Part shown: positions 1 through 56,169 of the stretch, piece after piece
Layout of the letters: the number at the start of each line of letters is the position of its first letter
Position numbering within the stretch: position 1 is the first letter of the stretch
Source: Antedon bifida
Lineage: Eukaryota > Echinodermata > Crinoidea > Comatulida > Antedonidae
Length of the DNA: 64,000 nucleotides
Assembly: GCA_963402885.1 (NCBI GenBank)
Contig: OY727097.1
Location: 10,664,001 to 10,728,000, forward strand
Direction: 5' to 3'
Made by a program: the position numbers and the translations under genes
The notes under the pieces: generated by a model
The model's database searches: none
Seen by the model: the letters and a program-made list of their open reading frames with translations, nothing else
Told to the model about the DNA's origin: nothing

Positions 1-183
1 AGCTACCTTCTTTGTTTTCTACTCTTATTCAGTCTCCACCCACCATTCACCACCATGTCTCCTTTTGTTGTATTTCTTTATTCCTGTCCACCCAGGCAGC
101 ACTTGCCAGTTCTTATGCTATGACGTTATCCAAATTCCTTCACTTGCACTGATGAAGGGCTAGTTTTGCCCGAAAGCTCTGCT
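1..183 (+). repeat. Truncated repeat ending in a hammerhead-like block
   Basis: Non-coding sequence. Its last 43 bases (141-183) recur almost exactly at 63581-63623, while the sequence further left does not match there. The right edge abuts the broken end of a Helentron-like copy that starts with TTATTCGGGAAGCC, so this is a junction between two repeats. A Penelope-like element or retrozyme fragment is possible, because those carry hammerhead motifs. No reverse transcriptase is visible here. Confidence 0.4.
141..183 (+). ncRNA. Hammerhead-ribozyme-like core, copy 1
   Basis: CTGATGA (149-155) is followed by a stem II candidate, GGGC paired with GCCC, then GAAA (172-175), a tiny stem III candidate GC-TCT-GC (176-182) and U at the 16.1 position. 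This order of core elements is that of a hammerhead ribozyme with a very short stem III, a form reported in Penelope-like retroelements. Weak points: an unpaired A lies between CTGATGA and GGGC, and no complementary stem I is visible in the flanks. Activity is unproven. Confidence 0.45.
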
Positions 184-854
184 TATTCGGGAAGCCATTG
201 AGTTGTAGATATGAATTCATGTACACATTTGACGTACAAAATGTTGTGACGTCATCAAATGGCCACTTGAATCTTTTTGTGTAGGTTATCACATTCAATA
301 GAGCGCATCTCCATTATTTGAGCCCGATTTTCGCTCAAATTTCAGTATGTGCTTGCTAAATTAATTATCTTTATCATGAGTTGCCACCATTTTCATTATG
401 ATGACGTCATCATGCGTAAAAACTTGAATAACGTGGGTCAAGTAATTTTATCTTCAGTGTATATTTGAATATCTCACAGCACCTTGATGATTTTAATTCA
501 TTATGACAGCTGATGAAATTTAGATATGAAATTCACATAAAAATTAAGCCTATCAGATGTTGTGACATTATGATATGGCCAGTTGAATTTAAAAAGTAGT
601 TTATTCATCTCTTTCCTCACATTTATAGCAATTTTAAAGAGCGCGAATTGCGCATCTACATGCCAAATTTTCTTCCAAACCTTATATTTTTTTGCTCAAT
701 TCATTATCTTTCGAAATTGTCATATTCAAGTTTATTACTCGTCATCAGAACATGATGTGGGTCAGCACTATATGCATGTTTAAAAAAATTTAATTTCATT
801 AAAATTATAAATAATCACCTATAATTCGTCAAAGTGACGAATTAAATTCTAGTT
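183..854 (-). mobile_element. Helentron-like non-autonomous element, copy 1 (truncated)
   Basis: On the minus strand this copy starts with AACTAGA at 854, continues with the hairpin AATTCGTCA-CTT-TGACGAATT and a left repeat beginning TAGGTGAT, and then matches the copy at 22117-23660 through its first 850 bases. It breaks off at 183 against the hammerhead-like repeat. It holds TGACGTCA palindromes near 246 and 401. There is no coding capacity. It lies in an intron upstream of the first visible Ig exon. Confidence 0.6.
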
Positions 855-10180: not shown

Positions 10181-11290
10181 TTAGTAGCCCCTTTCCAAAG
10201 TTATAAAGAAGAACCTGACGTCTATATGCTGCAATGTCTTTAACTTGAGGGTTTCAAGTGATTTTGCGTAACTAACATAGTTTTGATATCCAATAATAAG
10301 TTTTACAACACGCTTTTGGATGAATTCAAGTTGATCACTCTGTTTATTGGTGATTGAGCTATGCCAAAGAGGACTGGCATACTCAAGTAAAGGACGAATG
10401 TATGTTGTAAAAGTGAAAACCAGGTCATCCTTTGGGGCTCCAAAACGCTTCAGAATGTATAGCATATATAGACGACGTGATGCCCTGGAAACGACTTCTT
10501 TAATCTGCATGTCCCACTTGAGGTCACTTTGCAGATGCACTCCAAGAAGTTTCACACTCTGGGATTCTTCGAGTATAACACCATCCATTTGTAATGGCTC
10601 AAATTGGGGAACATTACGCAAAAAATGAACACGCATGACTTGAAACTTTACAGGATTTGGTGTTGCATCATTCTCCACACACCAACTGGAAAGAGCATCA
10701 AGGTTGCTTTGAATCGAACTATCTTCAGGTCTCTGTACTGAAATCACCTCGCCAATCGTCAGGTCATCAACAAACTTCCATCTATCAGGTACATTGTTGA
10801 GCAAATCATTAACCATGATAGTAAATAGGATTGGGCCTAATTTAGTACCCTTAGGCACTCCGCACGAAATTGGTTCTGGCGCTGAGACTGAACCGCCCAA
10901 CCGCACACACTGATTTCTTTGCGAGAGGAAGCTACACACCGTTGGAATGAGAGAGGGCATGATATTAAGACCAATTAATTTGTCAATCAGAATTGAATGG
11001 TTGACCCGGTCAAAGGCTTTACTAAAGTCTATGGCACAAATAGTACCATACATTCCTGAGCTATCTAATCCTGACAGAAGCCTATTACAGAGTTGTACAA
11101 GGTAATGAGTCGGTGATGAACCCTTCGCATTTCCAAACTGTTGGGAATCCATAAGAGGTCTGAAATCAGTAGCTATCCAATCAGAAAGGAACCTCTCAAA
11201 AATTCTACCAAAAACAGGCGTGATGGATAGGCCTATGTTCATTAGGTGTAGAAGCCTTTGGCTTTTTGGGTACAGGAGTAATGATGGCAT
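10181..11290 (-). pseudogene. LINE reverse transcriptase (minus-strand)
   Basis: A long frame of 369 codons. It has fingers/palm motifs (ITPVFGRIFERFL, and AIDFSKAFDRVNHSIL with the first catalytic Asp), CGVPKGTKLGPILF (motif B) and KFVDDLTI (catalytic motif C, here FVDD), then thumb sequences (VKLLGVHL, SRRLYMLYILKRFG) and the C-terminal YASPLWHSS block. The N-terminal part of RT lies beyond a stop between 11290 and 11385. The motif set places it near CR1/Jockey-type elements, with GTKLGP instead of GSxLGP. The palm looks intact, but the polyprotein is broken. Confidence 0.75.
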
Positions 11291-11384
11291 TCTTCCAGAT
11301 AGATGGGAAATTATTATCCTATAGGCAACAATTCAATATTTTAGCGAGAGGTTGGGCAAGCTCTAAGGCAAATTCCTTAATTAA

Positions 11385-12895: not shown

Positions 12896-14490
12896 AACTA
12901 GACATGAAACTCGTCACTTTGACGAGTTAGTTATCCGCACAACGACAAACGCCACGTGCACGTCATACGTTGGAATATTGCACACAGATAAAGATTATGG
13001 CATTATGACAAGAACTGAAGAATATGATATGCTGTTAGTGCTGAATTCTGTCAATTTGTGTCATATAGTATATACATGCAAACAGTATAATCTGTATACA
13101 TATTACATACAGTGTAGAATAGGTGAAATTACGGGACCCGCCATTTATTCCAATTTTTAACATGGCGACGGTATCAAAATGAAACACTTAAATAGCAATT
13201 TCTGGAGGACATTATCTCAGGAACAACATATTAACGTGTAGAAGAAATTTGAATACGTAAAATATAGATGCGCACCCTTTTAAATGTGATGAACTATTAC
13301 GCAAAATATGAAAATACGACTTTTTTTATTCAACTGGACATATGATGACGTCACAACATCCGATTGGCAAAATGTTTACATGAATTCGTATCTACAATCC
13401 AATAGCTTCCAGAAAACGTTTTAATCGTGATTATCACATTTTATTCTTACGAGCTATTACAGATTGAAATTTACTGTAAAGATGAAATTAATGACCCACG
13501 TAATTAAAATTTTTAGGCATGATGACGTCATAAAAATTAAAATATTTTTATCTCATGCTAAAGAAAGTTGATTGACCTACACAATATATAAATTTAGGAG
13601 AAAAAGGAATACAGATAAGCGTGATGCGCTCCATTGAATGTGATGAGCAATAACGAAAGAGACAAAAATCCTATATTTTACATTCGTGTGGCCATACGAT
13701 GACGTCACAATGTTTTTTTAGCCTTATCGATGCATGATCCGATATCTACAACTCATCAACTTCTAGATTTTGTAATAAAAATAAACGGTTCACGGTTTAC
13801 TTTAGAAACTATGACTGTTTAAAAAAAGACATAATTTTGACGATTTTTTAAGCTTTTTCATAAAAAACGCGCACGAATTGTCTAATTCAACGTGTTCGTA
13901 TGGCGTTATTTAAACTGGAAAAGGTCTAAATTGTTTTCAAAATTACTAGGAAAGACTTGAAAAATATAATTCAAGAGAAAAAAATATGTTTTTAACGATA
14001 CGTGCGCACCGCGTGCGTAAAAAATTGCGCGCCCGTGGGAATTTTTGACATGCTCAAAATGACAAGAAACGCATAAAAAGTTGATTAGAAATTAATTTTG
14101 CGCATTTTGAAATTTTAAATGCACGTGCGCGCGTAACTTCTTGTGAAACATACCATTTTTAATCCGTAGAAAGTTTGCCCCTGATATGACTTAAATTTTG
14201 TCAAAGTGTCAATACTAAATGACTTTTGGTTTTTAATCTATAATCAATCATTGAAATTCATAAAATTGCGCGTAAGTCACGTTGCGCAACTATGACGTCA
14301 TTCAAAAATAGGAGGTGCACAACTTCACGTAAATGCCCATATGTTGTCAAAGTTATGAAATGTTATGTTTACACATTTTAGAGAAACGCGACTCACAAAA
14401 AGGAAGGAAGGATCCAAGAATAATACAGAAAAAAAATTTTGATCCCATACAGTAACAAGGAGTTATCCGCTCTACCAAGCGGATAACTAA
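12896..14490 (+). mobile_element. Helentron-like non-autonomous element, copy A (complete)
   Basis: The 5' end is AACTAGA (12896), followed by hairpin AACTCGTCA-CTT-TGACGAGTT (12908-12928) and the left repeat AGTTATCCGC (12929-12938). The 3' end is a hairpin whose first arm repeats AGTTATCCGC (14461-14470) and whose second arm is GCGGATAACT (14479-14488). The body has two related modules of about 350 bp (about 13130-13480 and 13490-13800), each with paired TGACGTCA sites. No Rep/helicase frame exists. A 3' terminal hairpin preceded by a matching subterminal inverted repeat is the described layout of Helentron/Helitron2-type elements. The family assignment is inference. Confidence 0.6.
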
Positions 14491-14939
14491 TAAAACAATT
14501 TGCATATTTCAGTTGATTTGCATACTTCAGCTAACTAGCACTTATGGTTGGACAAAATGTTGCATAAGAACAATTTAGAAAAAATAATTAGCTCTCTACA
14601 ACTAGTGGTTGGCGTTCTATGGGTAGGGCCTACAGTATACCCTATATTTTAATCATTAATTTGCATATTTCAGCTAATTTACATGTTCCTAAGGTGTGAC
14701 CGAGGTATGATTTGTGGAATGATATGTGAAATGTATTCATGTGAAAAGCCACAAAAGGTTTAATGGTCTGATTATGTAGATATATACAGTAGCTAAGATT
14801 CAATAATCAATATTTCTGCCGGGTCATATCCTGTAAATTTTCCCTGGGGACACTAAATAGGAGGGGTAAAAAATCGACTCTTAATCATGTGAAAAGCCAC
14901 ACGGATAAAAGTTGTTGGAAATTGTCCCCATATGTGTAT

Positions 14940-15605
14940 ACAATGTTAAAACAGCAATGACAGCAACTGTAAGTTGCCCGAGACAGTAGCCCCAAGTGAC
15001 CACTAAAAATGGTGTTAATCATGTCAAGAGCCACATGGCTAATTCCTTTTGTATTGTATCTGTTGCACATTGGGATGCACAAAAATACCATTGACAGCAA
15101 CATCCTGTAAGTTGCCCCAGACAGTCGACAGAACATGCCCGTTGGGCCCTACAAGGTTTAATCATGGGAAAAAGCCACACAATTCCTTTTACATTGTAAC
15201 TATTATACTTTGGGATACAAAAATACCATTGACTACAACTTTATCCTGTAAGTTGCCCCAGACAGTAGCCCAAAAATGCCCGTTGGGCCATACAAGATTT
15301 AATTATGCGAAGAGCCACACGGCTAATTCATTTTGCATTGTCACTGTTACATATTGGGATGCACAAAAATACCATTGACAGCAACTTTATCCTGTAAGTT
15401 GCCCCAGACAGTAGCCCAAAAATGCCTGGGCCATACAATATTTAATCATGCAAAGAGCCACACGACAAAATCTCTTTTACATTGTAACTATTACCCTTTG
15501 GAATACAGAAATACCATTGACAGCAACTTTTTAATATAAGTTGCCCAGACAGCATCCCAACAATTTCCGATTCGCCCCCTACAAGATTTGATAACTCGAA
15601 GAGTA
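14940..15605. repeat. Satellite of about 141-bp units (left part)
   Basis: Five units start at about 14973, 15111, 15252, 15398 and 15540 (marker GTTGCCCxAGACAG), with periods of 138-146. Each unit carries the small hairpin GCCCGTTGGGC, an AAGAGCCACA block and AAAATACCATTGACAGCAAC. Open frames running through the array are by-products of the repeat. The array is interrupted by a LINE at 15606 and resumes at 17592. Confidence 0.8.
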
Positions 15606-15772
15606 ACTATACTCTAGGCTTTATCTTATCTGAACTTGCATATATATTCATATTTTTATTAATTATGTATGTATATTTATTTATTTTTTATTTATTTTAT
15701 TTATTTTTTTTTACGTCATGTACATTATATATAATATTAATTGTTCAACTGTATAATGATTGATAGTGTAAT

Positions 15773-16849
15773 TTGAATCTACCTAACTTTAATCAGTTAA
15801 CTCATAACCTTGATAATTTTGATGAGCAGTCAGCAGATTTAATCGATCAATTAAACTCGAGATCAACTACTCTTGATAACTGCTCATATTATGATTGTGA
15901 CAAGTTTATTTCAACCTTCACAAATGATTCCAATACTAACTTTTCTTTTTTTCATCTGAACATTAGAAGTATCAAAACTAAAGTAGACCCACTCATACGT
16001 CTGTTAGACAATTTAAGCATTGATTTCTCAGTAGTAGGTCTCTCAGAGACATGGCTACATGATAACTCGCCAACTCCCTCCTTACATAACTATACTTTTT
16101 TCTCTAAAAATAGGTCAACTAGAATTGGTGGTGGTGTTGCTTTATTTGTTCATAATGATATGAATGTTAAAATCAGACATGACATCTTGCCTCTGCCTTC
16201 TGAATCTCTATTCATTGAACTTAGTAACCATAACAAAAAATCTACTGTTGTTGGTATAATATACCGTCCACCTGGAAGTTGTCTTGCCCATTTTTCTGAA
16301 TCACTAGACAGTGTTCTAAGTAAAATTGATTCTGAAAATAAGAAGTGTCACATTATGGGGGATATAAATATTGAGCAATATCATAATCATCACAGCACTG
16401 GAAATTATCTTGATCTACTTCTTTCACCTTCTTTTTATCCCACTATATCGAAACCTACCAGAATAACTACAACAACTGCCTCTCTAATTGATCACTTTTA
16501 TACCAACCAAACTCATTCTAATATTTCCTCCGGTGTTCTTATTACAGATATTTCTGACCATCTTCCCATTTTTCAACTTATTCATGATGACCAATGCCAT
16601 TATAACAAGCCTACTGATAGACAGTCTCCCCGCATACAGGATGTTAATGCCTTTTGTAATGACATCATAAACGATTGGTCTGAAGTTTATAACGCCACGC
16701 CTAATCTCGCTTTTGACACATTTTTATTAAAATTCTATAATTTACATGATAAACATACCACCTATAAATCTGTACCCAAAACTAAAATGTCTAAACAACC
16801 ATGGATGTCGCATGGTCTTAGAAAATGTAGTAAAAAAAAGCAAAAATGA
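15773..16849 (+). CDS. LINE endonuclease (EEP domain), intact frame
   Basis: An open frame of about 358 codons. The exonuclease-endonuclease-phosphatase signatures appear in order: FFHLNIRSIKTK (metal-binding Asn), VVGLSETWLHD (catalytic Glu), IGGGVALFVH, VVGIIYRPPG, HIMGDINIEQYH (GDxN), and DISDHLPIFQL (catalytic Asp-His). It ends in a basic linker soon after PWMSHGLRK, where RT should start. The frame opens with a TTG at 15773. The true start may differ, because the 5' end is uncertain. The endonuclease would nick the target in LINE retrotransposition, but its own RT is deleted. Confidence 0.75.
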   Translation: MNLPNFNQLTHNLDNFDEQSADLIDQLNSRSTTLDNCSYYDCDKFISTFTNDSNTNFSFFHLNIRSIKTKVDPLIRLLDNLSIDFSVVGLSETWLHDNSPTPSLHNYTFFSKNRSTRIGGGVALFVHNDMNVKIRHDILPLPSESLFIELSNHNKKSTVVGIIYRPPGSCLAHFSESLDSVLSKIDSENKKCHIMGDINIEQYHNHHSTGNYLDLLLSPSFYPTISKPTRITTTTASLIDHFYTNQTHSNISSGVLITDISDHLPIFQLIHDDQCHYNKPTDRQSPRIQDVNAFCNDIINDWSEVYNATPNLAFDTFLLKFYNLHDKHTTYKSVPKTKMSKQPWMSHGLRKCSKKKQK

Positions 16850-16858
16850 TACAAAAAT

Positions 16859-17359
16859 ATATGTATCCTTCTTTCATTATATAATTCTTTAATTTTACCT
16901 CATCTTCATTATTGTAACATTATTTAGGCTGCTGACTATCCATCTCATCTCGATAAACTTAATATGCTGATTAGGCGCGCTATTAGAAATATTACTTTTA
17001 CGTCTCACATTACTCCATCTGAACCTTTATTTTATGAACTTAAGTTACTGAAGTTAGGAGATATACATAAATTGCAAAGTGCCTCTTTTGTCTTTCAATA
17101 TTTTTCTAACAATCTTCCTTCTCCCATGATGAATTTATTTAACACTGCTGATTTCAACCATGGTCATAATTTAAGAAGTACTGTTCATAAGTTTCAGTTA
17201 ACTATTCCTTTTGTAAGGTTAACTAGTTCTTCCCACTTTATTTATGTTTCTGGCCCTTTAATTTGGAATCAATTAAATACTAGTATTGTTAACTCTTCCT
17301 CTCTCCCAACTTTTCGTAAAAAACTTAAAAGTCATTTATTATCATTGTACTCAAACTAG
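16859..17359 (+). pseudogene. C-terminal remnant of LINE RT polyprotein
   Basis: It encodes the conserved tail of an L2/CR1-type polyprotein: LYNSLILPHLHYCNII, then a stop, then RRAIRNITF, FYELKLLKLGDIHKLQ, HNLRST, SGPLIWNQL and SLPTFRKKLKSHLL. The longest clean frame is 16964-17359. It directly follows the endonuclease frame, so everything from RT motif 0 to the thumb is missing. Confidence 0.7.
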
Positions 17360-17591
17360 ACCTTCAAGCTGTTTTTGTCATGACTTTTTTATTTTATTTA
17401 ATAATTATATACAAATGTATTTTTTTCTTTTGTTTATGGGTCTTGCGTGACAAGTAATCTCTTCTTGCAAGATCCTCTATTAATGGTATTTTTGTATTGT
17501 CTCATTATACATTTTCATTCTTTTTTATTGTATTGTTTTACCATTGATAGAAACTAATAAATGTCGAATTATTATTATTATTATTATTATT

Positions 17592-17800
17592 ATCTTGTAA
17601 GTTGCTCCAGACAGTAGCCCAACAACATGCCCGTTGGGCCCTACAAGATTTAATCATGCGAAAAGCCACATGTTAAAATCCATTTTACATTGTAACTACC
17701 TTTTGGGAGATACGGAAATACCATTGACAAAAACTTTATCATGACAGTATCCCCAAAATTTAATAAATCAAAGACAACAGCTAATTCGTGTTCTTAACTG
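17592..17800. repeat. Satellite of about 141-bp units (right part)
   Basis: Continues the array of 14940-15605 after the LINE: TTGTAAGTTGCTCCAGACAG at 17594, CCCGTTGGGCCCTACAAG, and AAAGCCACA, fading after about 17800. Confidence 0.7.
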
Positions 17801-18662
17801 TTGCACATTGAGCTATACGAAATTATAATAATTACAGTGTATAGATAAATATGGTAATTATGTGGAAACATACGGCATTAGATCTGACCCTACGGGATAC
17901 ATTGTATTATACCTGTTACAGGTGTCCCTGTACATTTTACCAGTGACATGATATATTCCACAAAAAAAGGATAGGCTATACATGTTGATACTAAAATCAT
18001 CAAATATCTATTAAGTAAATCATGAGCTATGTCAACCCCAAAAATTGTTGAATCCAAATTATATATTATACAAATTTTCAAATGTTACTTGCACCAAATA
18101 CCAAAATCATGACATTATAATAATAATATGAAATAGTTTTACGTTTTTTAAAGAATAATTGAGCTATCATAAAAGATCAATGACCTCTATATTACATAAG
18201 TAAGTAAATTTATTGTAATTAATTGTAATATATAAAAACATTACATTGAAATGAATTGAACGGTTTCTGGTAACAACAAATAAATAGCTTAAACTACATG
18301 GTGAAACTATCCCCCGTTGGACACCATCCTGGTACTTCTAGAATTGGTTTCGGGGGTGGTAAAAAACTACCCCTCCCCCACATAGAACATCATTTGGAAT
18401 AAACTCCCCACCATAGAACATCATTTGGAATTAATGAAATGTCCGGTGTGGAGGGGAGTTGAAATGTCCGAAGAAAACTTCCAGGGGTGAACTAGCCTTC
18501 TCCCATGAATTTTCAATTTACATCAACAATCTTGTCAATTTTCCAACAATTGACCTTTTCCCAATGTTTCTTTGATCTTACGCATCTGATGGAAACTAAG
18601 GTTTATGTTGCATTCTTCAATGATACTAATTTTTAAATATAATTTTTTTTTATTTAAAACAG
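17801..18662. other. Intron sequence, no gene seen
   Basis: Receptor intron. A stretch near 18200-18270 (AAATTTATTGTAATTAATTG and a TGAAATGAATTGAA run) resembles the antisense 3' end of an old LINE. A short duplication, ACATAGAACATCATTTGGAA, lies at about 18380-18435. Nothing else is supported. Confidence 0.4.
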
Positions 18663-18717
18663 AGAAATATTATCAAAAATTTACTCAAAAACGTGATACC
18701 AATCCAACAATAAGGAG
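18663..18717 (+). CDS. Cytoplasmic-tail exon 1 of Ig receptor
   Basis: A 55-nt exon between AAACAG and GTAAGA. Entered in phase 1 from the membrane exon, it encodes the strongly basic, tyrosine-containing KKYYQKFTQKRDTNPTIR, as expected just inside the membrane. It leaves in phase 2, which fits the next exon. The assignment rests on splice sites, phase and composition, because the exon is too short for homology. Confidence 0.6.
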
Positions 18718-18915
18718 GTAAGAGATTTAGCACTATTTTACTCTATATGCCATACTCTACTTTGAATTATTTAGAAGTATTATCAATGGTGGCACCAGGA
18801 TTTCCTTCATGGAGTTGCTGAATGGTCCTTTTTCAAGAAGCAAAAAAGAACCTTCCAATAGAGGAATGGTTGTATAAGACTTAACTGATGTTGTATATGT
18901 TTCAATTGTTATTAG

Positions 18916-18966
18916 GGAAAATTATGCCATGGGAAATGAAAGTTACTACATAACAATACCCTCAAA
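18916..18966 (+). CDS. Cytoplasmic-tail exon 2 with ITIM-like motif
   Basis: A 51-nt exon between TTATTAG and GTGAGT, phase 2 on both sides. It encodes RENYAMGNESYYITIPS. SYYITI fits the ITIM consensus S/I/V/L-x-Y-x-x-I/V/L, and NYAM adds a further tyrosine. In Ig-family receptors such motifs recruit SH2-domain phosphatases after phosphorylation. That role is inferred here from the motif alone. Confidence 0.6.
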
Positions 18967-20100
18967 GTGAGTACCTTTTGTTATTTATTTTTTTTTTTTG
19001 TTCTAAGGGTACATTCAGATTTACTGTTATATAATGCACACAGTAATCTGTGGTTACAAAAGGGAACGAGTTTAGACACAAGAAACAAAACGATGTTCCA
19101 GTCCATGTGGATGATGAGACAAGTTTGTATCTAACACTAATCTGCAGTAAACACAAAAATATCTATGCACGTACATAACACTGCCTTAACACTCTGAGAA
19201 CATACCATGAAAATAGTATGTTTGGACTCACTAGAGTAAAAAGCTGATCATTATCATATCCACGATACATCTGGAGTAATGTGTGACCAGTTAACTCTAT
19301 TAAACCTCTGCTAAATTTTGCTCCCGGATAACAATTTAAATTGGTGGGTGGTCATTATCGTCACTCGAAATGCAATGGAATCTTTCGAAATTCAAATGTT
19401 ACTGCTGTGTAGTTGACTCGGCTGTCAATCATCGTTTTACTTAGACAGTTATTGGTTAAAAATATCTTGTGAAAGTACTGTAGCATTTTACGACCTGTAG
19501 TAGCCCTACATCTGAGACAACAACTAGTTGTTGTCTCAGCCTACAGTACATGTAAAATTACAAAATCAGCAAGGATACTAGGCCCAGGCCATTGATATAG
19601 GCCTATGTAGCTAATCTTAAGTGTAGTAGCTACAACGTGTAATCATGATCTATATACTCACCGTTGTCTACTAGCCTGGGTGCAGAACAGTTAATATACA
19701 CATTTGCGGGAAAAAAGTATAGGAAAATTTTTTTTTAGTTTTTCTGATAGAGTATACCATATAGAATGTCAGAAAAAAAATCCCCATCCAAATTCCTATT
19801 AACACACACAAATACCTATATAGGGGATAGGGAAAATCAATTAACGGTTTTTGTTACTTGCAGTTGTGTTTTAATTTAATTTTTTTTTTAAATAGTATAA
19901 GAAAATTGAATATATTTTGGTTTCATAAATTTAACAGCTAATATAGTTTTTGTCATATGTATTACACTGTATCTCGTATTCCTTGATCAATTTTCACCAA
20001 AATTCCAATTTGTTGTTGCTGTGAACAATCACCTTTTATGACCTACATTTCTTTTTTGTATCAAATGTAACATTTCTTTTTGTCTATTGCCAATTTTTAG

Positions 20101-20137
20101 CGATCCACAAACTGATGTTAAAATTAATGTGTTGTAG
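20101..20137 (+). CDS. Last coding exon of Ig receptor
   Basis: Follows a T-rich acceptor ending CAATTTTTAG at 20100. Entered in phase 2, it reads NDPQTDVKINVL and then TAG (20135-20137). The summed length of all modelled exons is an exact multiple of three when it is included. The 3' UTR follows. Confidence 0.6.
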
Positions 20138-20320
20138 ATGCAAAATTAGTAAGTATACCAATATTATTTACATTTGTATGAATTTAGTGTTAGATAACTG
20201 TTTATTCAATCAAATCGTCAACATCAATATCAACATCAATATTATTGAGGTTCAAATTGTTTTTCTACCAATATCCTATTCACATTTTGTAGTTGAATAA
20301 ATGTACAATAATTACAGATT
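20138..20320 (+). promoter_or_regulatory. 3' UTR and poly(A) signal of Ig receptor gene
   Basis: AATAAA at 20296-20301 lies 160 bases after the modelled stop codon and is the first canonical poly(A) hexamer downstream. The true cleavage site cannot be fixed from sequence alone. Confidence 0.5.
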
Positions 20321-21690
20321 TAACATTGATCCTGCTATTTGGTGTTTATTTAGATTTCATCATTTCATTCTAGCAATTTGAATAGAAGTTTTACATTATT
20401 TTCCACACAATTAAATTTTTAAAGCTAAGAAAACATTTTTACATCATCTACATTCTTTCATTAATCAACTTTTTAAGGGAATTATATTTGAATTTCAGAT
20501 GACAAAAATAACAAAGGAACCAGTCATAGAATTATACAGAAACACATTGACGATTTGTGTTGGTGTCATCAAAATGAAAATTAATATTGTTTCAGCTAAT
20601 ACAGTATCAATGTAATGAATATGACAAATTTTGCTGTCATAATTTGTTTATGGCCTGATTTCACTTATTTATATCATATATGGAGTACAGTATTTTAAAA
20701 CTTGACACTATACTGTATACTATTTCTAAACATAAAAGAAAGATATACTGTAGTTCTCATGTCTCAGTATATAGTTTTTTTAAAAGTTCCAGATAAGTGA
20801 TGACGTAGGCCTCCCCTCAGGGAAGGTTCTTCGCATTGACATACACTGCCTCTTTCATACCATCTGGATTCCCTGTCTAATATGACTTTATATGCCACAG
20901 AAACTTTCCTCATCAAGAAACGACAATTAGCACAATTTGTACTGAAATATAGGCTGGTATGGCCTTCCTTCCTTCCTCAAATCCAACTGCAAGTGAAGTG
21001 TTTCTCCTAGAGCACAGTATTTATACACATTGTGCAGCCTACAATACAATGCTACAAGCTAGCTCATCTGGCCTATGCAAATTAACTTATCCATATTCAT
21101 TATCTTGCTATTATACAGAGGTCATATTGTAGTTTTTAGTTGTAACCCTAATTAACATGCTCAGATATATGGCAACTTCAGTTTAAAATGAATCTGAAAC
21201 CATTATATCTGTTATTAAATAAATTCAACTATGATCATAATTATATACATAAATAATATACAGCCCAACATGACACTTAACCAAAAGAATAAGTATATAT
21301 ACATGGTATAGTTACCCAAAGTAGTTAATTGTGTTGTGACCTATTCCAGGTACGCAATTGTACCACTAGGTGGAGATAGGCAATCAATGTGCAATACACT
21401 GGCCCATACTACAGTACTATTATCATGATTTTTCACTGTACCTTGTCTCATTACATGAAAGCCCTACAAAAAATCACTTATTTCTATAGTTTTAGGCTAC
21501 TAACATATTCAAGAATGTTATTATAAGACATAATTTTGGTAAACTTGTTTTGGATCAGCTCAATCCACCTTTAATACCATTATTAATTTCAGGAACTATA
21601 AATGGTAGGTTACATTGATTAACATTAATTTTTAACATTCTAGTAAAGCTTAACTTAAGATTTTAATGCTTACACTGCAACTACTAAGTA
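20321..21690. other. Intergenic, no gene seen
   Basis: AT-rich sequence between the end of the receptor gene and a tRNA-like repeat. Several short direct repeats are visible, but no exon, RNA gene or clear mobile element. Confidence 0.4.
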
Positions 21691-21691
21691 A

Positions 21692-21765
21692 GGTCGTGTG
21701 GCTCAGTGTTGGACATTGAATTACTGATCGCGAGTTGGAATCCAACTCTCGCCGCACTGCCCAAG
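21692..21765 (+). repeat. tRNA-like SINE head
   Basis: TGTGGCTCAGTGTTGG resembles a pol III A box, and GAGTTGGAATCC 35 bases later resembles a B box with one change (GAGTTCGAATCC expected). The T-arm-like GCGAGTT/AACTCTCGC can pair. A purine-rich AGAGGGAGAGGAGGAGG tract follows. This fits a tRNA-derived SINE head rather than a working tRNA. Confidence 0.4.
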
Positions 21766-22116
21766 AGGGAGAGGAGGAGGAAGTGGAAGAACAATTTGTT
21801 ATATATATTTGTTATATGTATTTTTTTAGGGGTGTGGGGTGGAAAGGCTTGATAATAGGCAGGTGATTTAAATTGTGTGGTTATTTTGAAATATTGGAAG
21901 GACATGTAGTAGGGGCAATTAATAGTAATTAGTATGGTCTTATATTTTCGTGGTGTACCGCTACAAAGGTGTATGTTCAATGTATTATATTAAGGAAAAT
22001 TTCTTTAAATACTAGATTAAATTTTATTGTTATATTACATTTTATTATAGTCTATTTTAGGAAGAAAGTTGAAGAACTGAGGTTATTTAAGGGGCATATT
22101 GTACAGAATAAATACC

Positions 22117-23660
22117 AACTAGAATTTAATTCGTCACTTTGACGAATTATAGGTGATCATTTTTATCATTTTACCGAAATAATTTTTTTGCACGTACGTC
22201 AACATACGATCAGAAAATGCTGATGTATGCCATCCTATTATACGCTTTAGTGTTGAGTTGTGCCTATTATATGCCATATACAATATGTACAGTATATAAT
22301 GTATCTATATACAGTGTAGCATAGGTGAAATTACGGGACACACATCATGTTCTAATTTTTTGGTATGATGGAATTATCAAAATAAACTCGAAGATGACAA
22401 TTTCGAAAGATAATGAATTGAGCAAATAAATATAAGAATTGGAAGAGAATTTGGCACGTAGAAGCGCTGTGCGCGCTCTTTGAAATTTGTATAACTTTGA
22501 CGAAAAAGATGAAAAAACTACTTTTTAACTTCAACTGGCCATATGTTAACGTCACAACATCCGATAGGCTTAATTTTTATATGAATTCATATCTACATTT
22601 CATCAGCTTTCATAATAAATTATAATTATCAAAGTAACCTTTAATTCTGAAGAGCTGTAAGATATTCAAATTTACGGCGAAGGTGAAATTACACGACCTA
22701 CGTTATTCACGTTTTTACGCGTGGTGACGTCATCAAAATAAAAATAGTGGCAGGTCATGAGAAAGTCAATTAATTGAGAAATCACATACTAAAATTTGAG
22801 CGAAAATCAGGCACAAATTATTAGAGATGCGTTCTATTGAATGTGATAAAATATGACAAAAGAGAAAAAAAACTTAATTTTAAATTCAAGTGGCCATTTG
22901 ATGACGTCACAACATTTTGTACGTCAAATGTGTACATGAATTCATAGCTACAACTCAATGGCTTCCCGAATAAGTTAAAAAAAATGGGGGTCATCTTGCA
23001 TTCTGAAGAGTTATTTTCATTTTAAAAATGCCTCATTTTTCACCATTTTCAGCACTTTGATGGAATTCATTTGCGCATTTTGTCATTTTTAACGTGCTCG
23101 TATAGCGTTATCTTAAGTCGGAATGGACTCAAAATCGGTGAATGTACTAAGAATTGTGAGTAGATTGTGATTTATACATCAAATTTTATTTTTTACGCTT
23201 TCTAAGAATCGTAAAGTAATTTTTTGAAACGCGCAAATGGCCTAATTCATGCTCTAAATTGATCAAAACTTAATTTTGAGCGTTCTAAATTTTTAACGCG
23301 CGATTTCACGTGCATGACCTTGAAACGCGCAACTTTTTATTTGCTAATATTTTTACCCTTGACCTGAAGTTTACATGTAGTGAATTTCATTAATATGTGA
23401 TAATGAATTATGGAGATATGATTGATAATGTGATTTCACAAAATGGCGTATAAATGACGTCACGGATGAGTGATCACGCTGGAAAGCTTATTAGGATTAA
23501 GTTATATCATTTGAAAGATATTCTGAAATTTTGGTAATCATTGACATTAAACTTTTTGAGATATCTGTTACACAAAATAGTGTACAGAAACAATAAAAAG
23601 AAAAATAAAGATTTGATACAATAACAATAGGTGATCATTTTATTCTAAATGATCACCTAA
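22117..23660 (+). mobile_element. Helentron-like non-autonomous element, copy B (complete)
   Basis: Same layout as copy A. AACTAGA is at 22117, hairpin AATTCGTCA-CTT-TGACGAATT at 22128-22148, the left repeat TAGGTGATCATTTT at 22150-22163, and the 3' hairpin has TAGGTGATCATTTTA (23628-23642) paired with TAAATGATCACCTA (23646-23659). TGACGTCA occurs near 22725, 22901 and 23456. The body is collinear with copy 1 and more distantly with A and C. No coding capacity. Confidence 0.6.
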
Positions 23661-27896: not shown

Positions 27897-30162
27897 AAAC
27901 TAGACTTGAACTCGTCACCACAAACGCGCACGTACGTTAAACCTGTTTTATAAAATTCGCACAGAGAAAAGATGTATATGCTATATTATGATCTGAATAT
28001 CAAAAACATTGTTATCAGTGAGCTCTCTATTTTGTGTCCAAGTATATAGGCCTACAGTATACACTAAATGTTGTGTACAGCTTAGTTGAAAATATCGGAC
28101 CCGCTTTTAATTCTAATTTTTAACATGATGACGTCATCAAAATGAAAGACGATGATAACAATTTCGGATGAAAATTGTCTGAGCAACAACATATTAACGT
28201 GTTGAAGAAATTTGGATACGTAGAATATAGATGCGCGCTCTTTTAAATGTGATGAACTATGACGCAAAATATGAAAATACGACTCTTATAATTCAACTGG
28301 CCATATGATGACATGACGTCACAACATCCGATGCTCAAAATGTGTACATGAATTTTTATATACAATTCACTTTTCATTCTGAGAAGCTATAACAAATTTT
28401 AATTTATTGGAATGATGAAAATAATTTTGCACATGATGACGTCATAATTTAAAATGGTAAATGATGCAAAAGGTAATTGATTGACGTCCTATACAATATC
28501 AAAATATGGGGGGAAATGGACTACGAATAAGTGGAGATGCGCTCTGTTAAATGTGATGAGCTATGACGAAAGAAACAAAAATCCTATATTTTATATTCGA
28601 GTGGCCATACGATGACGTCACAATGTCCGATTAGCCATATTGATGCATGGTCCGATATCTACAACTCATCAACTTCCAGAATATGTAAAAACAATTAAAT
28701 TCACCATGTAATTTAGAATCTAAGACTGTTTAAAAAAAGGCATAATTTCGATTTTTCATCAAAAACGCGCGCGAATTGTCCAATTCGAAGTGCTGGTATG
28801 ACGTGATTTTAAGTCGAAATTGTTTAGAAGTTAGAAAATTACTAGAAAAGGCTGGAAAAACATAATTCACACACAAAAAAAGATGTTTTTAGCGCTACGT
28901 GCGCGTACAAATTTGCGCACACCTGGATATTTTTTACATGCTTAAAATGACATGAAACGCGTAGAAAGTTGATTAGAAATTGATTTTTCGCATTTTAAAA
29001 TTGTAAATGCGCGTGCGCGTCGTAACTTTCTTTGAAACATGCCATTATTTTTCCACAGATAGTTAGCGCTTGACATAAATGTACAATTTGCTAAGTTTTA
29101 ATTTAAATTGTTATATGGTTTTCGACCTATGTTAAATACGCTAAATTCATAAAATCGCGCGTAACTTACGCTTGGTGACTCTAAAGTCATCTATATATAA
29201 ATTATGGTTAATTCTGACAAAGGCGAGCACAATGCAAAAACTTCGGTACAAATCTCCGACTTGGATACCTACCTTATCTATCTCAGATGTACCGCGAAAC
29301 GTAGATTTGATAACATTAATGTGCAGTTCGACGCTATTTTTCCATATTTCTATCTTAGCAAGATATTATAAAGAGTTTTTTAACAACATTTATGATTTCA
29401 ACAGTAGATTTTCTACTCAATTTCAGTTCTTGGCGGTCAAGTAATTTCCGGGTTTATGATAAGTTCACCTTGCAGCAACATGGTTTCAACTATTTTCTCT
29501 CTTTTATACACAAGGGAGCAGCAGTTAAAATAATAGGTTTGACCCTAAAGGTGAATGGAAACAGGCACTTTCCATCAATCAATACGGAAGAAAAAAACAG
29601 ATACTATAGTAGGACTGGAGCGTTGGCCATTAGTCATAGCCATTTTAGTATTTTGTTTATTTTAGGAACGGACCACGCGTGTGAAAGGTACAGTAGTTAA
29701 AAAATAAAAATTATATTGCAAATTAATAAAGATCAAATTAAATATACGCCATAAAGAATCGGAATATATTGTGGGGAATAGTATTATAAATTACATAGGG
29801 AGATTTGATGATAAGACATTAATCGAGTGAAATCCCGATAGCTGAGTTTGATTAAGTAAGCTGGCAGGAATAACTGTAGGCTATCTGTGTCCTGTTAGGA
29901 CCGAGATGTCTGCCCATGTTGCAAGCCGTAATGTCTTCTTTCTTGGACCGAAACGGCCCACTCTGTCACGGCAGTTAGTTTCAAAAGATGTTTAAATTAC
30001 ATAATGTATTAATACTTATTAGGATGATATTTATTTGAATAAACGCCTCTCCAATAAAACATTACTTTGAATAATAATCACCATTTTCGGGAAAAGAAAG
30101 AAGAATATAGAAAAAAAAGATCGTGACAATAGCAAGGGTTTATCCGCCAAGTGCGGATAACC
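27897..30162 (+). mobile_element. Helentron-like element, copy C, with insertion
   Basis: Begins AACTAGACTTGAACTCGTCAC like copy A but has lost the second hairpin arm and left repeat. The body then follows copy A closely to about 29175. The 3' hairpin GGTTTATCCGC/GCGGATAACC ends at 30162, preceded by GACAATAGCAAGG as in A. Between about 29180 and 30100 lies unrelated sequence, read as an insertion. TGACGTCA sites lie near 28127, 28314, 28437 and 28613. Confidence 0.55.
29180..29700 (+). repeat. Inserted repeat with a conserved open start, copy 1
   Basis: From CTATATATAAATTATGG (29190) the sequence matches the minus strand of 48919-49190. Both copies share a frame starting at ATG 29202 (minus-strand ATG at 49170 in the other): MVNSDxGEHNAKTSVQIS, then DTYLIYLRCTAKRRFDNI. 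Most differences are single-codon changes. After about 50 codons the copies diverge and this one stops. It could be the start of a transposon protein or of a multicopy exon. I do not recognise it. Confidence 0.4.
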
Positions 30163-39844: not shown

Positions 39845-40288
39845 GTGAATTTTCGTATTATTGAAATTGTTTTGATTAGAAAGTAAACATATATGTTGAA
39901 ATGATGATGGAAAAAAAATACTTTAAAAATGTAGGAAAGTAGGACTGTAAAAGATAATGATAAATTCTAGAAAAAAACACCTGAGTAGTACCTGAGTCAA
40001 TAAATTAGCGTTAATAATATGCTTAGGACGGCCTTCTTGTACAGAAAATAAAAGATCTAGGCTTGGCCTAAGCCGCACACATAGCCTGGCCTAAACCCGT
40101 GTACTACCACCGGCCCAGCGATGGAATAGCTTCAGGAGCGCTGCTACATGTAGAGACTACAAGGTCAGATCCCAATATCATTACGTCGTACGTTCACTTT
40201 CAACTACGACCCATGTGGGTGTGAACTTCGTGCACGTTAACACAAGTTAGTGTAAAAGAAAAATGATAATTTATTATTTATATTACAG

Positions 40289-41441
40289 GAATAGACCATT
40301 AGGCAAATATCATACAAATCTAGAAAGTCACCAAATCGATTTTTGGAGAACATTTGGCAATGTTTCAAGCTGTTTACCAAAGAAGAAAAATGTTTGTTAC
40401 ATAAAAACGCACAAGACTGGTAGTACGACCATGGGACACATCATGAATATATTTGGATTTCGCCACAACTTATCATTTGCGTTCAACAAAAATAAAACTT
40501 CTAATGGCCATATAGGTTCATTTACGGTTTTAAACAAAGATACTCCTCGTCATAGTTTTCTCCCCCCATTAGGAGTTGAAAAAGGTGACTATGATAATTA
40601 TAAGTATAACTTGACATCTGTTCACTTCCGCTATATCAGAGCAGGACTCATTTCATTCATGAACCCTGATACAAAATACATAACAATAATTCGGGAACCA
40701 GCCGGGCAATTCGAGTCTGCGTTTGACCAATTCCAATTAAAGAGAGCATTGATAAGAAATAAAACTGAATCAGACTATGAAAACATTAAAAGGTTTTTAC
40801 AATATCCTGACCATTATTGGGAAAACCTGAGGAAAGTCAAGTGGCGAGGGAATTCTGGAAGAGCTTGGTATTATGCAAGAAACAATCAACTGTTTGATCT
40901 CGGATTAGATCATAAATATCACGGGGACACACAGCTAGTGGAAAGATATCTTGATCTGTTGAACAACGAGTTTGAAATGGTTATAATTTTAGAACACATT
41001 GATGAATCGCTTGTTGTCCTAAGGAAAGAGTTGTGTTGGTCTTGGAATGATGTACTATATATAGCTAAAAATGGACGTGAAAACGTAACAGCATTACTTG
41101 ACAAATTACAGGAGAAGATACGAGCGTGGAATTTTGCAGATAGAATGCTTTACTCGTATTTCAATAAAACACTCTGGCAAAAAGTACAAAGATATGGCTC
41201 AACGTTTGAATCAGACTTAGCTCTTTTTAGAAAGTTGAGGCAACAGGTTAATGACGTTTGTGAGGTTAAAACACAAATTAGAAATAATAAAGTTTTTCAT
41301 AACCAAGCAAAGGGGGCGTCCTTAGAATGCGAGCTTTTAGGTATGCGGAAAAATGGGATGTTCAAAAAAGTTTTTCTACGCCAAGGAGGAGACAAAGCGA
41401 CAGAACAAATTGACGAAAAAGATTTTGACCCTTTCTTTTAA
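40289..41441 (+). CDS. Galactose-3-O-sulfotransferase (GAL3ST family), catalytic exon
   Basis: This exon carries the whole lumenal sulfotransferase domain. In the joined protein, KTHKTGSTT (about residues 88-96) is the 5'-phosphosulfate-binding loop for PAPS, VHFRY is the conserved motif before the core, and TIIREPAGQFESAF (about 181-194) is the 3'-phosphate-binding segment. NLT, NKT and NVT are glycosylation sequons. The three exons sum to 1299 nt, 432 residues, close to the vertebrate family length of about 420-490. Family members transfer sulfate from PAPS to the 3-OH of galactose on glycolipids or glycans in the Golgi. Which acceptor is used here cannot be told. The acceptor site TTACAG lies at 40283-40288. 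The frame is intact to TAA at 41439. Confidence 0.88.
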
Positions 41442-43674: not shown

Positions 43675-45156
43675 GTGAGAGCAAATATAAATAAATCTCC
43701 GTGGTTCACTGAAGGTATTGCAATATCAATTCGTAAGAAAGAAAAACTATACAGTTTGTATAGAAAAAATCCGACACTTTATATAAAATCTAAATACACT
43801 AACTACAGAAATAAATTAACTAAACTAATACGACTAAGAACAAGGCCAACAGCCATTAAGTCGCGTGCTACAATGCATAGTGATACCGGACCGACAGACA
43901 GACCGACAGACCGACAGACAGACCGACAGACCGACCGACCGACATAGTGAACTATAGAGTCGCGTCCACGCGACTAAAAACGAATTACCTGAATGAAGAA
44001 TTTGAGAAAAATAAAAATAACTCTAAAAAAACATGCCAAAATATTAACAATTTATTAGAAAAAAATTACAATTCGGAAAAACCGTCAAAGATGTTCTTAA
44101 ATACAAACTATTACAACAATGAACAAGATCAGGCAGCAGCAATGAATTCATATTTTATTAATATTGGCAAAAATATAGCAACTGATATAAAAAATAAAAG
44201 AGGTAATAGAATAGATCCACCAACGTTAATGTCTGGCAATTACGCCAATTCTATGTTTGTTAGGCCAGTAAATGAACATGACATTAAGAAATATATTGAT
44301 AATCTAGATGTAAGTCACCTGGTAATGATGGAATTGGTGCTCGTTATGTTAAACCATTTTCGCAATACCGATTAAACATATTGTTAATATATCATTGACA
44401 ACTGGTTACTTTCCAGATGAATTAAAGATTGCCAGAACTGTGCCTATATTCAAGGGTGGCGATGAAAATGACATAAAAAATTATAGACCTGTTTCAGTCT
44501 TGCCTTGTATTTCTAAAATGTATGAAAGGGTTGTGTATGATCAAACAACTCAATACCTTGACAAACGTAACATCATTAATAAATCACAGTTTGGTTTTCG
44601 CAAAAACCACTCTACGAGTCATGCAATTTCACAAACAATAGAAAAAATTACTTCAGCAATAGATAAACAAATGATAAGTATCGGCGTCTTCCTAGACCTT
44701 TCTAAGGCATTTGATACGATAGATCATGAGATTCTCTTACAAAAACTCAAATTTTATGGTATTAGGGGCATTGTTCTTGAATGGTTTAAGAGCTACTTAT
44801 ATATGAGAAAACAATATGTTCACATGGGAAATTGTAAATCAGAATTAAAACTGATTGAATATGGAGTACCACAAGGCTCAATTCTTGGGCCGTTACTTTT
44901 TATAATTTATACAAATGACATTGTTGAAAGTAGTAAATATTTAGAATTTGTCATTTTTGCTGACGATACTAATGTATTTTTTAAGCACAAAAATATAAAC
45001 CTTTTAATTAACACTTTAAATACAGAATTAAGTAAATTAAGTGATTGGTTTACTGCAAACAAATTGAGTCTGAATACAAAGAAGACCAAGTTTATCGAAT
45101 TTAGAAGCATGTATAAGAAAAAACGTAATATATTGTTCAATCAGATGTTTTGTTAA
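43675..45156 (+). pseudogene. LINE reverse transcriptase, interrupted
   Basis: The pre-RT linker (SPWFTEGIAISIRKKEKLY) leads to KLTKLIRL, where the 140-bp insertion sits, then NEEFEKNKNN, and after a frameshift at about 44370 the palm: TVPIFKGGDENDIKNYRPVSVLP, SQFGFRKNHST, GVFLDLSKAFDTIDHEIL (first catalytic Asp), YGVPQGSILGPLLF, and FVIFADDTNVFF (catalytic FADD). A deletion or frameshift at about 45150 removes the thumb. The catalytic boxes are all kept, so the decay is recent. Confidence 0.75.
43837..43976 (+). mobile_element. 140-bp Helentron-like mini-element inside LINE
   Basis: The host LINE frame (IRL-KTNY) is restored if bases between the two CGACTA copies (43831-43836 and 43971-43976) are removed. 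The insert has a weak 5' hairpin (AAGGC/GCCATT), a left repeat AGTCGCGT (43859-43866), a (GACC/GACA)n tract (43884-43942) and a 3' hairpin AGTCGCGT-CC-ACGCGACT (43958-43975). The matching left repeat and 3' hairpin arm are the same design as copies A and B, with a third sequence. It encodes nothing. Confidence 0.55.
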
Positions 45157-45982: not shown

Positions 45983-46550
45983 CTGAGGTGACGGGACGAT
46001 TCGGCCCGGGACGATTCGGCCCTGGGACGATTCGGCCCTGGGACGATTCGGCCCGGGACTATTCGGCCCGGGACGAATCGGCCCGGGACGATTCGGCACA
46101 CTTAAATTTATCGAAAATGATCATTTTTTAGTCACGCGAACGATGTAAACAAGTTACGCCCTCTGTTGTTTTTAGTAATTTATTATATATTATATCAAGA
46201 TTGTCAATATCAATAAATTACTAAAAAAACGTAATTTATATTCAATTTATTACTTCGAAAACCTTGTTTATTTCGCCAAGCGACCAACAGAGGGCGTAAC
46301 TTGTTTACATCGTTCGCGTGACTAAAAAATTATATCAAGATTGTCAATATCAATAAATACGGATTGTTAAACACCTTTAAAAACTGGATAAATACCAAAA
46401 AAAATGAATATGAATTTGGTCTAAAGTGAGACGTTTCGGCCCACAAAGTGAGACGATTCGGCCCAAAAGTGGGCCGAATCGTCTCACCAAAAGTGGGCCG
46501 AATTGTCCCGGGCCGAATCGTCTCAGAGCCGAATCGTCCCTGAACCTCAC
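45983..46550. mobile_element. Foldback-type element with terminal GGACGATTCGGCCC repeats
   Basis: The ends are inverted (left TGAGGTGACGGGACGATTCGGC read against the right end, TGAGGTTCAGGGACGATTCGG on the minus strand). Each terminus holds several tandem 14-16-bp units of GGACGATTCGGCCCxG, in opposite orientation left and right. Inside is a perfect 39-bp inverted repeat (46130-46168 and 46285-46323). The AT-rich core is duplicated (TATCAAGATTGTCAATATCA at 46193 and 46333). Long inverted termini made of tandem units are typical of foldback transposons. No transposase. Confidence 0.7.
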
Positions 46551-50725: not shown

Positions 50726-52381
50726 TTAATGTCACTATTAAGTGGGTGCCATGATAATTTGTCTCCACACATCTCTATCAAGCATGCTCTTTCTCAGTTC
50801 ACTCAGGTCTAGTTTGGTATCTTTCAACAGAATGTGAAGCCAAGTCAGTTGACTTTCCTTTTCTCTTCTGGTTCCCAAAGGAGAACTCTTGAGGCTGGCT
50901 CAGAGCTTCTCATAACATGACCGGCCAGGCCCATGCGACGTCTTTGAATGATGGTTGTAAGAAGAGGAAGGTTTGCATATAGTGTCTTGTTGGTGGCGTG
51001 TGAGGACCATGGGATGTTTTGGACTTTCTCCATCCAATGATTTTGAGAGCGATGAAGTAAGACTCCATGTCTCACAGCCGTAAAGAAGAATAGCTTCAAC
51101 TGTTGACTTAAAGAGGCGGATTTTTGTGGACTTGTTGATACGAGATGCCCATATTTTCGAAAGACTGTTCAGCGCACCCCATGCTTGACCAAGTCTTGCT
51201 TCGACATCATGGTTAGTGGATGAACAGTAGCTTTCGAGGTACTTGAAATCCTCTACTTGTTCTATTGCTGATCCATCCAGTGCGAAAGTTATAGAAGGTG
51301 ATGAGGGGTTTAAATGTATGAATTGGGTCTTCTTGATGTTTAAGTATAAACCTATAGCTTGTGTGGCTTGTTGAATTCTGTGCAGTAGATTTTCGGCAGC
51401 ATGTATGGAATCTTCAAGAATGGTGATGTCATCGGCAAAGTCTAGGTCTGGTAGTACTTCAGCTGGATGTCTTCTACTACGCCTACGGTGGAGGGTGAGA
51501 CCGTCTGATGATGTAGTTGCTGATCGCATTGCATAGTCAAGGCAGACAATAAACAAGAATGGAGCAAGAGGGTCTCCTTGAAGTACGCCAGAGTCGATGT
51601 TGAAGCAATCAGTCTCACCATCTGGAGTCAGGACAACTGCTGATGTATTGATATACATTACTCTGATGGCTTCTACAATTTCATGAGGGATGCCGTATGC
51701 TAAGAGGATCTTCATCATAATGTTGCGATTGATGGAATCGAAGGCTTTGCGAAAATCAATAAAGATAATGACTGCCTCTTTGTGATGGTTCTTAACCAAT
51801 TCTCCTCAGGGCAAGAATGTGCGTAGTTGTTGATCGTGCCTGACGAAAGCCATTCTGGTTCACAGGACGTATCCTATTTAAAATCAGGTGATTGTAGATC
51901 TTTGCAGCAAATTGTGATAATGAAATACCCCTGTAGTTATCTGGTTTTGAAAGATCACCTTTTTTCGGGATAGGAACGATCCCAGAAATTCACCATTCTG
52001 ATGGCCTGTTTCCGTCAAGAGTTTGATGGCAGAAAGAAGTGAGAGCGTTCTGGGTGCCAGGTAATTTCTATATTTCGATGGGAAGACCGTCAAGACCAGG
52101 TGCTTTGCCAGATTTCATCTGTTTGCAGGCAATTGACACCTTAGCCTCGGAGAACTTCTCGGAGCTTATCTGGTGGTTGAAGTTAAAGATTTTGCCGATA
52201 TCCATGTCATCTACCACTGAAGTCTCCACCGATAGTAGTTTGTGGAAGTGAGTTTTCCATGCTAGAAGACGATCCTCTCCCATGATGCAGGCACTTTGAG
52301 ATCTCTTCCCTGAGAGTTGTTTGACAAGTTGCCATGCAGATCTTAAGCTGTTGGCCCATGCTGGTTGATCGAAAAAATGAC
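50726..52381 (-). mobile_element. RTE-type LINE, 5'-truncated, within palindrome arm
   Basis: On the minus strand it ends in CATTAAGTAAGTAAG, a short tandem tail, and is flanked by TGACCAA on both sides (50709-50715 and 52379-52385), a probable target duplication. The coding part runs from a linker (SGKAPGLDGLPIEI, about 52070) to the end of RT (50900), with frameshifts near 52080 and 51800. The comparison with the uninterrupted right arm defines the insertion. Confidence 0.75.
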
Positions 52382-56165: not shown

Positions 56166-56169
56166 TCGT

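Follow-up and report, generated by a model that had tools for sequence, protein, structure and literature searches.

The locus studied here raises the question of how the ends of a transposon can change between copies and stay matched within each copy. It lies in a stretch of 64,000 nucleotides from the crinoid Antedon bifida (contig OY727097.1, positions 10,664,001 to 10,728,000 of the forward strand; hereafter the window, with positions counted from its first letter), for which a first-pass annotation had described a Helentron-like family whose terminal repeats differ between copies, among them A and B, but stay matched inside each. To our knowledge it is not settled how Helentron-type elements recognise their ends and stop replication. 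Our analysis revealed that A and B are subfamilies of a non-autonomous rolling-circle transposon of the Helitron2/Helentron type (HINE). The sequence code of the subterminal inverted repeat (subTIR) of this transposon, here called R, occupies three sites per element, namely arm 1 and arm 2 of the 5′ hairpin and the 3′ subTIR. R agrees within elements and differs at the three sites together between subfamilies.

Both copies are complete and lie on the minus strand. Copy A, of type A1, spans 12898..14489 (1592 bp), with its CTAG 3′ end at 12898 and its 5′ end at 14489; copy B, of type B, spans 22119..23660 (about 1541 bp, the 5′ end being uncertain by 1-2 bases). Read on the element strand, both consist of TTAG, preceded by T-rich sequence, the 5′ subTIR in its hairpin, the body, the 3′ subTIR, the palindrome TCGTCAAAGTGACGA and CTAG. 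The 5′ subTIR is palindromic and stands few nucleotides from the 5′ end, where T(T) is followed by AGTTATCCGC or AGGTGATCATTT with the complement. In copy A the hairpin occupies 14461..14488 (AGTTATCCGC and complement) and the 3′ subTIR 12929..12938 (GCGGATAACT on the element strand, AGTTATCCGC as read on the plus strand). The corresponding features of copy B are a hairpin at 23628..23659 (TAGGTGATCATTT and complement, with an arm of 13 bp and a 14th T in the loop) and a 3′ subTIR at 22150..22162, again TAGGTGATCATTT. That the left repeat of A equals the first arm of its own hairpin, and that B does the same with a different sequence, had been read correctly at first pass. The spacing from the 3′ subTIR to the element end is 31 bp in both. 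The 3′ palindrome follows at 12908..12928 in A (AACTCGTCA-AAG-TGACGAGTT, 10 nt from the CTAG end) and at 22127..22149 in B (TAATTCGTCA-AAG-TGACGAATTA), with the common core TCGTCA-AAG-TGACGA; it differs between types by one covarying pair, AACTCGTCA/TGACGAGTT in A and AATTCGTCA/TGACGAATT in B and in a further copy, copy 1, a covariation that had also been noticed. Predicted DNA folds amount to -11.3 and -11.2 kcal/mol for the 5′ hairpins and to -8.3 and -8.5 kcal/mol for the 3′ palindromes. No reading frame of at least 150 amino acids was found inside A or B, and both are self-similar at an offset of about 357 bp, in keeping with the internal repeats that HINEs can have.

Asymmetric terminal inverted repeats (ATIRs) with hairpins at both ends, as used to define Helitron2, are present in A and B, and so is the HINE arrangement in which a palindrome, lying 8-35 bp from the 3′ end (10 bp in A), comes after the 3′ subTIR. 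Canonical Helitron1 elements are marked by 5′ TC, 3′ CTRR, a 3′ hairpin only and insertion between A and T; CTAG fits CTRR, but A and B have a 5′ hairpin and ATIRs and no 5′ TC. The anatomy is therefore that of published Helitron2 and HINE elements, in line with the Helentron-like label of the first-pass annotation. Its orientation was reversed: the elements lie on the minus strand (copy 1 on the plus strand), the hairpin taken for the 5′ one is the 3′ palindrome, and the supposed 3′ hairpin holds the 5′ subTIR, since, as in Helitron2 and HINE, it is the conserved hairpin that adjoins CTAG, and R lies in the hairpin at the other end. The bodies are related, with identities of 70% between A and B (744 columns), 75% between A and a third copy, C, and 82% between B and copy 1, and A and B fall in one tree, so that they are not unrelated elements. 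Copy C, which had been counted among the related bodies, contributes its body only, as it lacks R and the second palindrome arm.

Searches covered a genome of 315.6 Mb in 27 contigs, and all exact-pattern counts given for it are lower bounds. The 15-mer palindrome has at least 4,233 exact matches (2,103 + 2,130), against none for its reversed control, and within the window eight matches with up to three mismatches compare with 1.03 expected; the palindrome is therefore not a product of chance. Exact patterns of the 5′ hairpin matched at least 1,376 times for type B, 451 times for the main A1 type and 300 times for the backbone shared by types A3, A4 and A5. In 216 kb of contig C1 together with the window we called 73 5′ ends and 94 3′ ends, and these formed 63 bracket pairs, R not being used for the pairing. 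The same R 8-mer stood at all three sites in 60 of the 63 pairs (19 with AGTTATCC, 16 with GGTGATCA, 14 with GGTTATCC and 11 with GGTTTTCC). One of the three remaining pairs has an altered 3′ site, one an altered arm 2, and one is a mis-pairing of a B-type stub with an element behind it that has lost its 5′ hairpin after GGTTATC. Apart from this mis-paired case, no element with a different R at its 5′ and 3′ ends was found among the 63 pairs, a sample in whose reach rare chimeras do not fall. The 5′-end caller missed one real end (C1:20178559) and made at least one false call (C1:4810482). Ten further copies were sought, two of which could be paired in their windows (C1:17381206 and C1:20778062), and the windows of the other eight contained ends of other copies or none.

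Because the 5′-end caller requires near-complementary arms, we added patterns in which some bases were left free, which avoid this bias at those bases. For the A3/A4/A5 backbone the free 5′ pattern TNGTTNTCCGCAACGAAGTTGCNGGANAACNY gave at least 300 matches. Among the 100 of them that were listed, the arms were complementary at the free bases in 97, with 64 carrying GGTTTTCC/GGAAAACC, 27 GGTTATCC/GGATAACC and six AGTTATCC/GGATAACT. The free 3′ pattern had at least 277 matches, and among the 100 listed 70 read GGAAAACC and 30 GGATAACC. Listed 5′ ends were then paired by coordinate with listed 3′ ends at a distance of 1,450-1,720 bp. This was possible for 52 of the 100, and R matched in 50 of these 52 pairs (40 with GGTTTTCC and GGAAAACC, 10 with GGTTATCC and GGATAACC), compared with a mean of 34.6 and a maximum of 44 matched pairs in 20,000 shuffles. 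One of the two disagreeing pairs arises from an outer stub that encloses an inner element with a mutated arm 1. The 48 listed 5′ ends left unpaired include six of type A5, whose 3′ end is excluded by the spacing of the 3′ pattern, and three with mismatched arms. Independent variation of R and hairpin arm was thus not seen in the sampled part of the genome. The B and A1 patterns left four and six bases free, respectively, the remaining bases being fixed by the pattern, and no variation at the free bases occurred among the 100 listed of the 1,376 B-type 5′ ends or among the 68 readable of the 451 A1-type ends. The first-pass statement that the ends change between copies accordingly applies to subfamilies but not from copy to copy.

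How R differs between subfamilies was examined by counting R changes on a tree and comparing the count with shuffled labels. On a body tree of 60 copies from which the terminal blocks had been removed, five R changes are needed, against 32.7 with shuffled labels, and the three R sites agree in 58 of the 60 copies. The 3′ palindrome is nearly invariant. Between A3 and the copy at C1:17381206, loop, 3′ block and tail are alike, and one base differs in arm 1, in arm 2 and in the 3′ subTIR. Type A5 combines the loop and downstream flank of A3/A4 and the A3 tail with an A1-like 3′ block, and both of its hairpin arms match that block. Its 5′ end has at least 20 exact matches in the genome. Ten A5 copies beyond the bracket-paired one were inspected: an A1-type 3′ subTIR was present in nine windows and no 3′ end in one (L110). 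The nine windows comprise five with the A3 tail (on contigs C7, C8 and C11), one with a decayed tail (L115) and three (L108, L113 and L118) with an A1 tail at about 1,637 bp, which we take for nested copies. The position of A5 varies by tree, being sister to the A3/A4 clade in one and inside that clade in the body tree of 60 copies.

Many copies are nested within one another. At C1:9946172-9965800 the called 5′ and 3′ ends, 12 of either kind, can be assigned to 12 elements, in each of which R agrees; they have net lengths of 1,565-1,633 bp and the same orientation, are up to five deep (L038-L041, L092-L095, L101-L103), and have their 5′ ends stacked in T-runs. Insertions often lie in the T-run just inside the 5′ hairpin of another copy, and element ends and nested junctions are mostly T-flanked, as far as the flanks of filled sites, which alone were compared, indicate. 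Among the 100 listed B-type matches, 19 of 99 successive 5′ ends are 36-75 bp apart on one strand. Six B-type 5′ hairpins lie within 340 bp on one strand at C1:19291234-19291572. A spacing of 1.5 kb suggested tandem rolling-circle arrays, but nested insertion explains the arrays better, because the 5′ ends often stand only some dozens of bases apart and the 3′ ends follow in bracket order. End-to-end junctions (CTAGTTGG) are also present. Nests built by self-insertion are a way of building satellite-like arrays.

We infer that pairing between the ends is probably needed for transposition and that R is a drifting tag by which an element matches itself. The palindrome and the CTAG end would be read by a shared Rep-helicase, and R would act through base pairing, the 5′ subTIR pairing either with its partner in the hairpin or with the 3′ subTIR. 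Such a pairing switch might fix the end of replication and the closure of the circle, and the drift of R to another sequence would require a change at every one of the three sites. Where a copy has inserted just inside the 5′ hairpin of another, as is often the case, a single 5′ end may be followed by more than one 3′ end; a matching tag would single out the correct one. Of the two explanations offered at first pass, selection for pairing between the ends fits best, although its novelty was overstated, as both this idea and compensatory changes had appeared in print for Helitron2 and DINE-1.

A number of observations weigh against this explanation. Our sample comes mostly from one chromosome, and agreement between the two arms is partly built into the 63 bracket pairs by the demands of the 5′-end caller. 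Ten of the 73 5′ ends and 31 of the 94 3′ ends stayed unpaired; some of these lie at the edges of stretches and some lack a 5′ hairpin in a stretch of full length. Examples of 3′ ends for which no 5′ hairpin was found in the sample are C1:1541407, 1606349, 3536038, 3746666 and 3948794, and at C1:3536038 and C1:3948794 R is decayed or different and no 5′ hairpin is recognisable. The first pair is mismatched in three of the 100 listed hairpins, and the second of the two disagreeing coordinate pairs, C1:21387240, is a genuine mismatch; all four cases may be later mutations. The tree contains only five R changes, one of which is the deep split between A and B. Furthermore, the same pattern would arise if R were recognised by a protein at every site and each R type had its own Rep, and no autonomous element with A- or B-type ends was found among the flanks of Rep-helicase (RepHel) genes that were read.

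The three sites might also agree through copying and not through selection, which we consider possible but would not expect. The hairpin arms and subTIRs brought together at the circle junction would template each other, by template switching or by mismatch repair of a heteroduplex during rolling-circle replication, and a change would thereby spread to all three sites. A mechanism that rewrites both ends together, which may operate, had likewise been proposed at first pass. According to the predicted DNA fold (-16.8 kcal/mol), a single long stem can arise when the ends of copy A are joined, and template exchange at the rolling-circle origin of circoviruses is thought to help keep the origin sequence (PMC2690592). 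The arms of A5 carry the R of a different, A1-like 3′ block despite their A3/A4 loop and flank, and the difference between A3 and A4 can amount to one base, repeated at three sites. Neither the A5 nor the A3/A4 case decides between selection on separate mutations and copying between sites. In some loop variants the stem is extended, as in the little-diverged copy C1:2120799, where AGAATA has become AGAATGCT. As evidence of template switching this palindrome extension is nevertheless weak. Enumeration shows that inserting three random nucleotides would extend the A2 stem in 22% of cases. Of five A1 loop variants, four leave the stem no longer than before, and a single insertion into the base loop yields neither one of the three A2 loop variants tried nor the B variant. 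The invariance of the listed A1 and B 5′ ends at free bases also speaks against copying.

Doubtful, in our estimate, is a broader version in which R drifts freely as a code for self-recognition. Whatever sequence the two ends share would work, sharing would determine which 3′ end is used by a replication fork coming from a particular 5′ end and would keep nested elements separable, and copying templated by hairpin or junction would change the three sites in one event.

It is also unlikely that terminus modules travel with their own Rep proteins, such that each R is read by a different autonomous Helentron, the bodies are passengers, and recombination takes over the ends of a donor together. 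The 3′ terminal blocks of about 100 bp do differ between A3/A4 and A1/A5 as if exchanged, tails also occur in different combinations, with A1 R joined to A2-like or A3-like tails, and the subTIR defines families in Thomas et al. 2014 (PMC4067079). Several possible partners are on offer, since the genome contains 39 Helitron_like_N matches, of which 24 have no internal stop and lie in open frames of 1,377-3,182 codons; none of 14 control genomes matched this domain. Upstream of the Rep match at C11:11264147, Herpes_teg_N and OTU domains are encoded in the same frame, a combination that has been described for Helentrons (PMC9741609). The strongest matches of the RepHel candidate with a named source are sea-urchin proteins, a hint of an echinoderm host, and RepHel flanks, including L141, contain fragments similar to HINE bodies; no hairpin of at least 9 bp was found in L141. 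At C11:11265700-11269200 (L142), upstream of a Helitron Rep domain, a long open frame encodes Herpes_teg_N and OTU domains together with a repeated RQNCKQKLAEKY-like tract. An exchange of whole ends leaves the single-base differences at three sites unexplained, as between A3 and C1:17381206, which are otherwise alike in loop, tail and 3′ block, and the A types and B have the palindrome core and the CTAG end in common. Very improbable is the absence of any coupling, with R a frozen lineage marker that matches because each subfamily had one founder: the invariance of the listed A1 and B ends does mean that many copies are not many tests, but five R changes on the body tree, 58 of whose 60 copies agree at all three sites, and different matched versions within one backbone, contradict it.

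The window contains further elements of this kind. Copy 1 (182..852, plus strand) is the 3′ part of a B-type HINE, with a mutated subTIR at 809-821, the palindrome at 822-844 and CTAG at 849-852. Copy C (27900..29170, minus strand) is an A-type HINE without 5′ end, 3′ subTIR and second palindrome arm. A miniature HINE of another family (43841..43976, minus strand, 136 bp) has an inner GACC/GACA repeat, a 5′ hairpin at 43958-43975 (AGTCGCGT.CC.ACGCGACT on the plus strand), a 3′ subTIR AGTCGCGT at 43859-43866 and a 3′ palindrome at 43843-43858, and it does provide the third matched pair that had been reported for an element at 43837. Its 3′-end pattern has at least 458 exact matches genome-wide. 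The miniature element lies near a reverse-transcriptase frame at 44353-45156, one of four RVT_1 reading frames in the window (the others at 10181-11332, 50900-51805 and 56142-57374). A galactose-3-O-sulfotransferase-like frame is located at 40251-41441, and an inverted repeat (GTGAGACGATTCGGCCCA), perfect over 18 bp and with a loop of 4 bp, at 46448-46487, surrounded by related repeats of this motif.

Earlier papers have described matched ATIRs and their compensatory changes. In Bao & Jurka 2013 (PMC3627910), such changes are reported for the terminal features of two related Helitron2 elements, and the authors proposed that the 5′ hairpin is broken when the ATIRs pair, which would determine where replication ends. 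Yang & Barbash 2008 (PMC2374699) reported subTIRs that differ between species and within D. willistoni, and a compensatory change of the 3′ stem. As in Helitron2, our elements have the 5′ ATIR in the 5′ hairpin and the 3′ ATIR just upstream of the 3′ hairpin, with compensatory changes; relative to the two elements described in that report (PMC3627910), many copies and several subfamilies are compared here with three sites counted, and the elements have a CTAG end and mostly T on both sides. The 31-bp spacing falls between the corresponding 20-30 bp of Helitron2 (PMC3627910) and the about 38-60 bp of HINE mite families (Thomas 2014, PMC4067079). Absence of coding capacity, subTIRs that differ between types, a palindrome near the 3′ end and a 3′ stem preserved by compensatory change are shared with HINE/DINE-1 (PMC4067079, PMC2374699), which insert between two T residues with no target-site duplication; the copies here are mostly T-flanked. 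Unlike HINE/DINE-1 as described in these sources, several subfamilies with single matched-base differences occur in one genome, and the 3′ CTAG recalls proto-Helentron-Pi and Helitrons. Cg_HINE of the Pacific oyster (PMC7492417) has a similar subTIR, partner repeat, 3′ palindrome and internal repeats; most of its types are reported with predominantly one subTIR mismatch, whereas the match here is near-exact. ATIRs are also found in FoHeli of Fusarium (PMC5148889), with hairpins at both ends in some subgroups; circular-intermediate evidence is given for FoHeli and its multiple termini are ascribed to self-insertion, to which we add one nest of 12 copies in which each bracket agrees by R. Among openly licensed PubMed Central papers we found no announcement of a genome-wide three-site count or of R as a tag in nests. 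New compared with these known systems are the sister subfamilies one base apart at three sites, A5, and the 12-copy nest agreeing by R; with single-base subfamilies at three coupled sites, and nests that test the choice of ends repeatedly, the published idea of ATIR pairing becomes directly testable.

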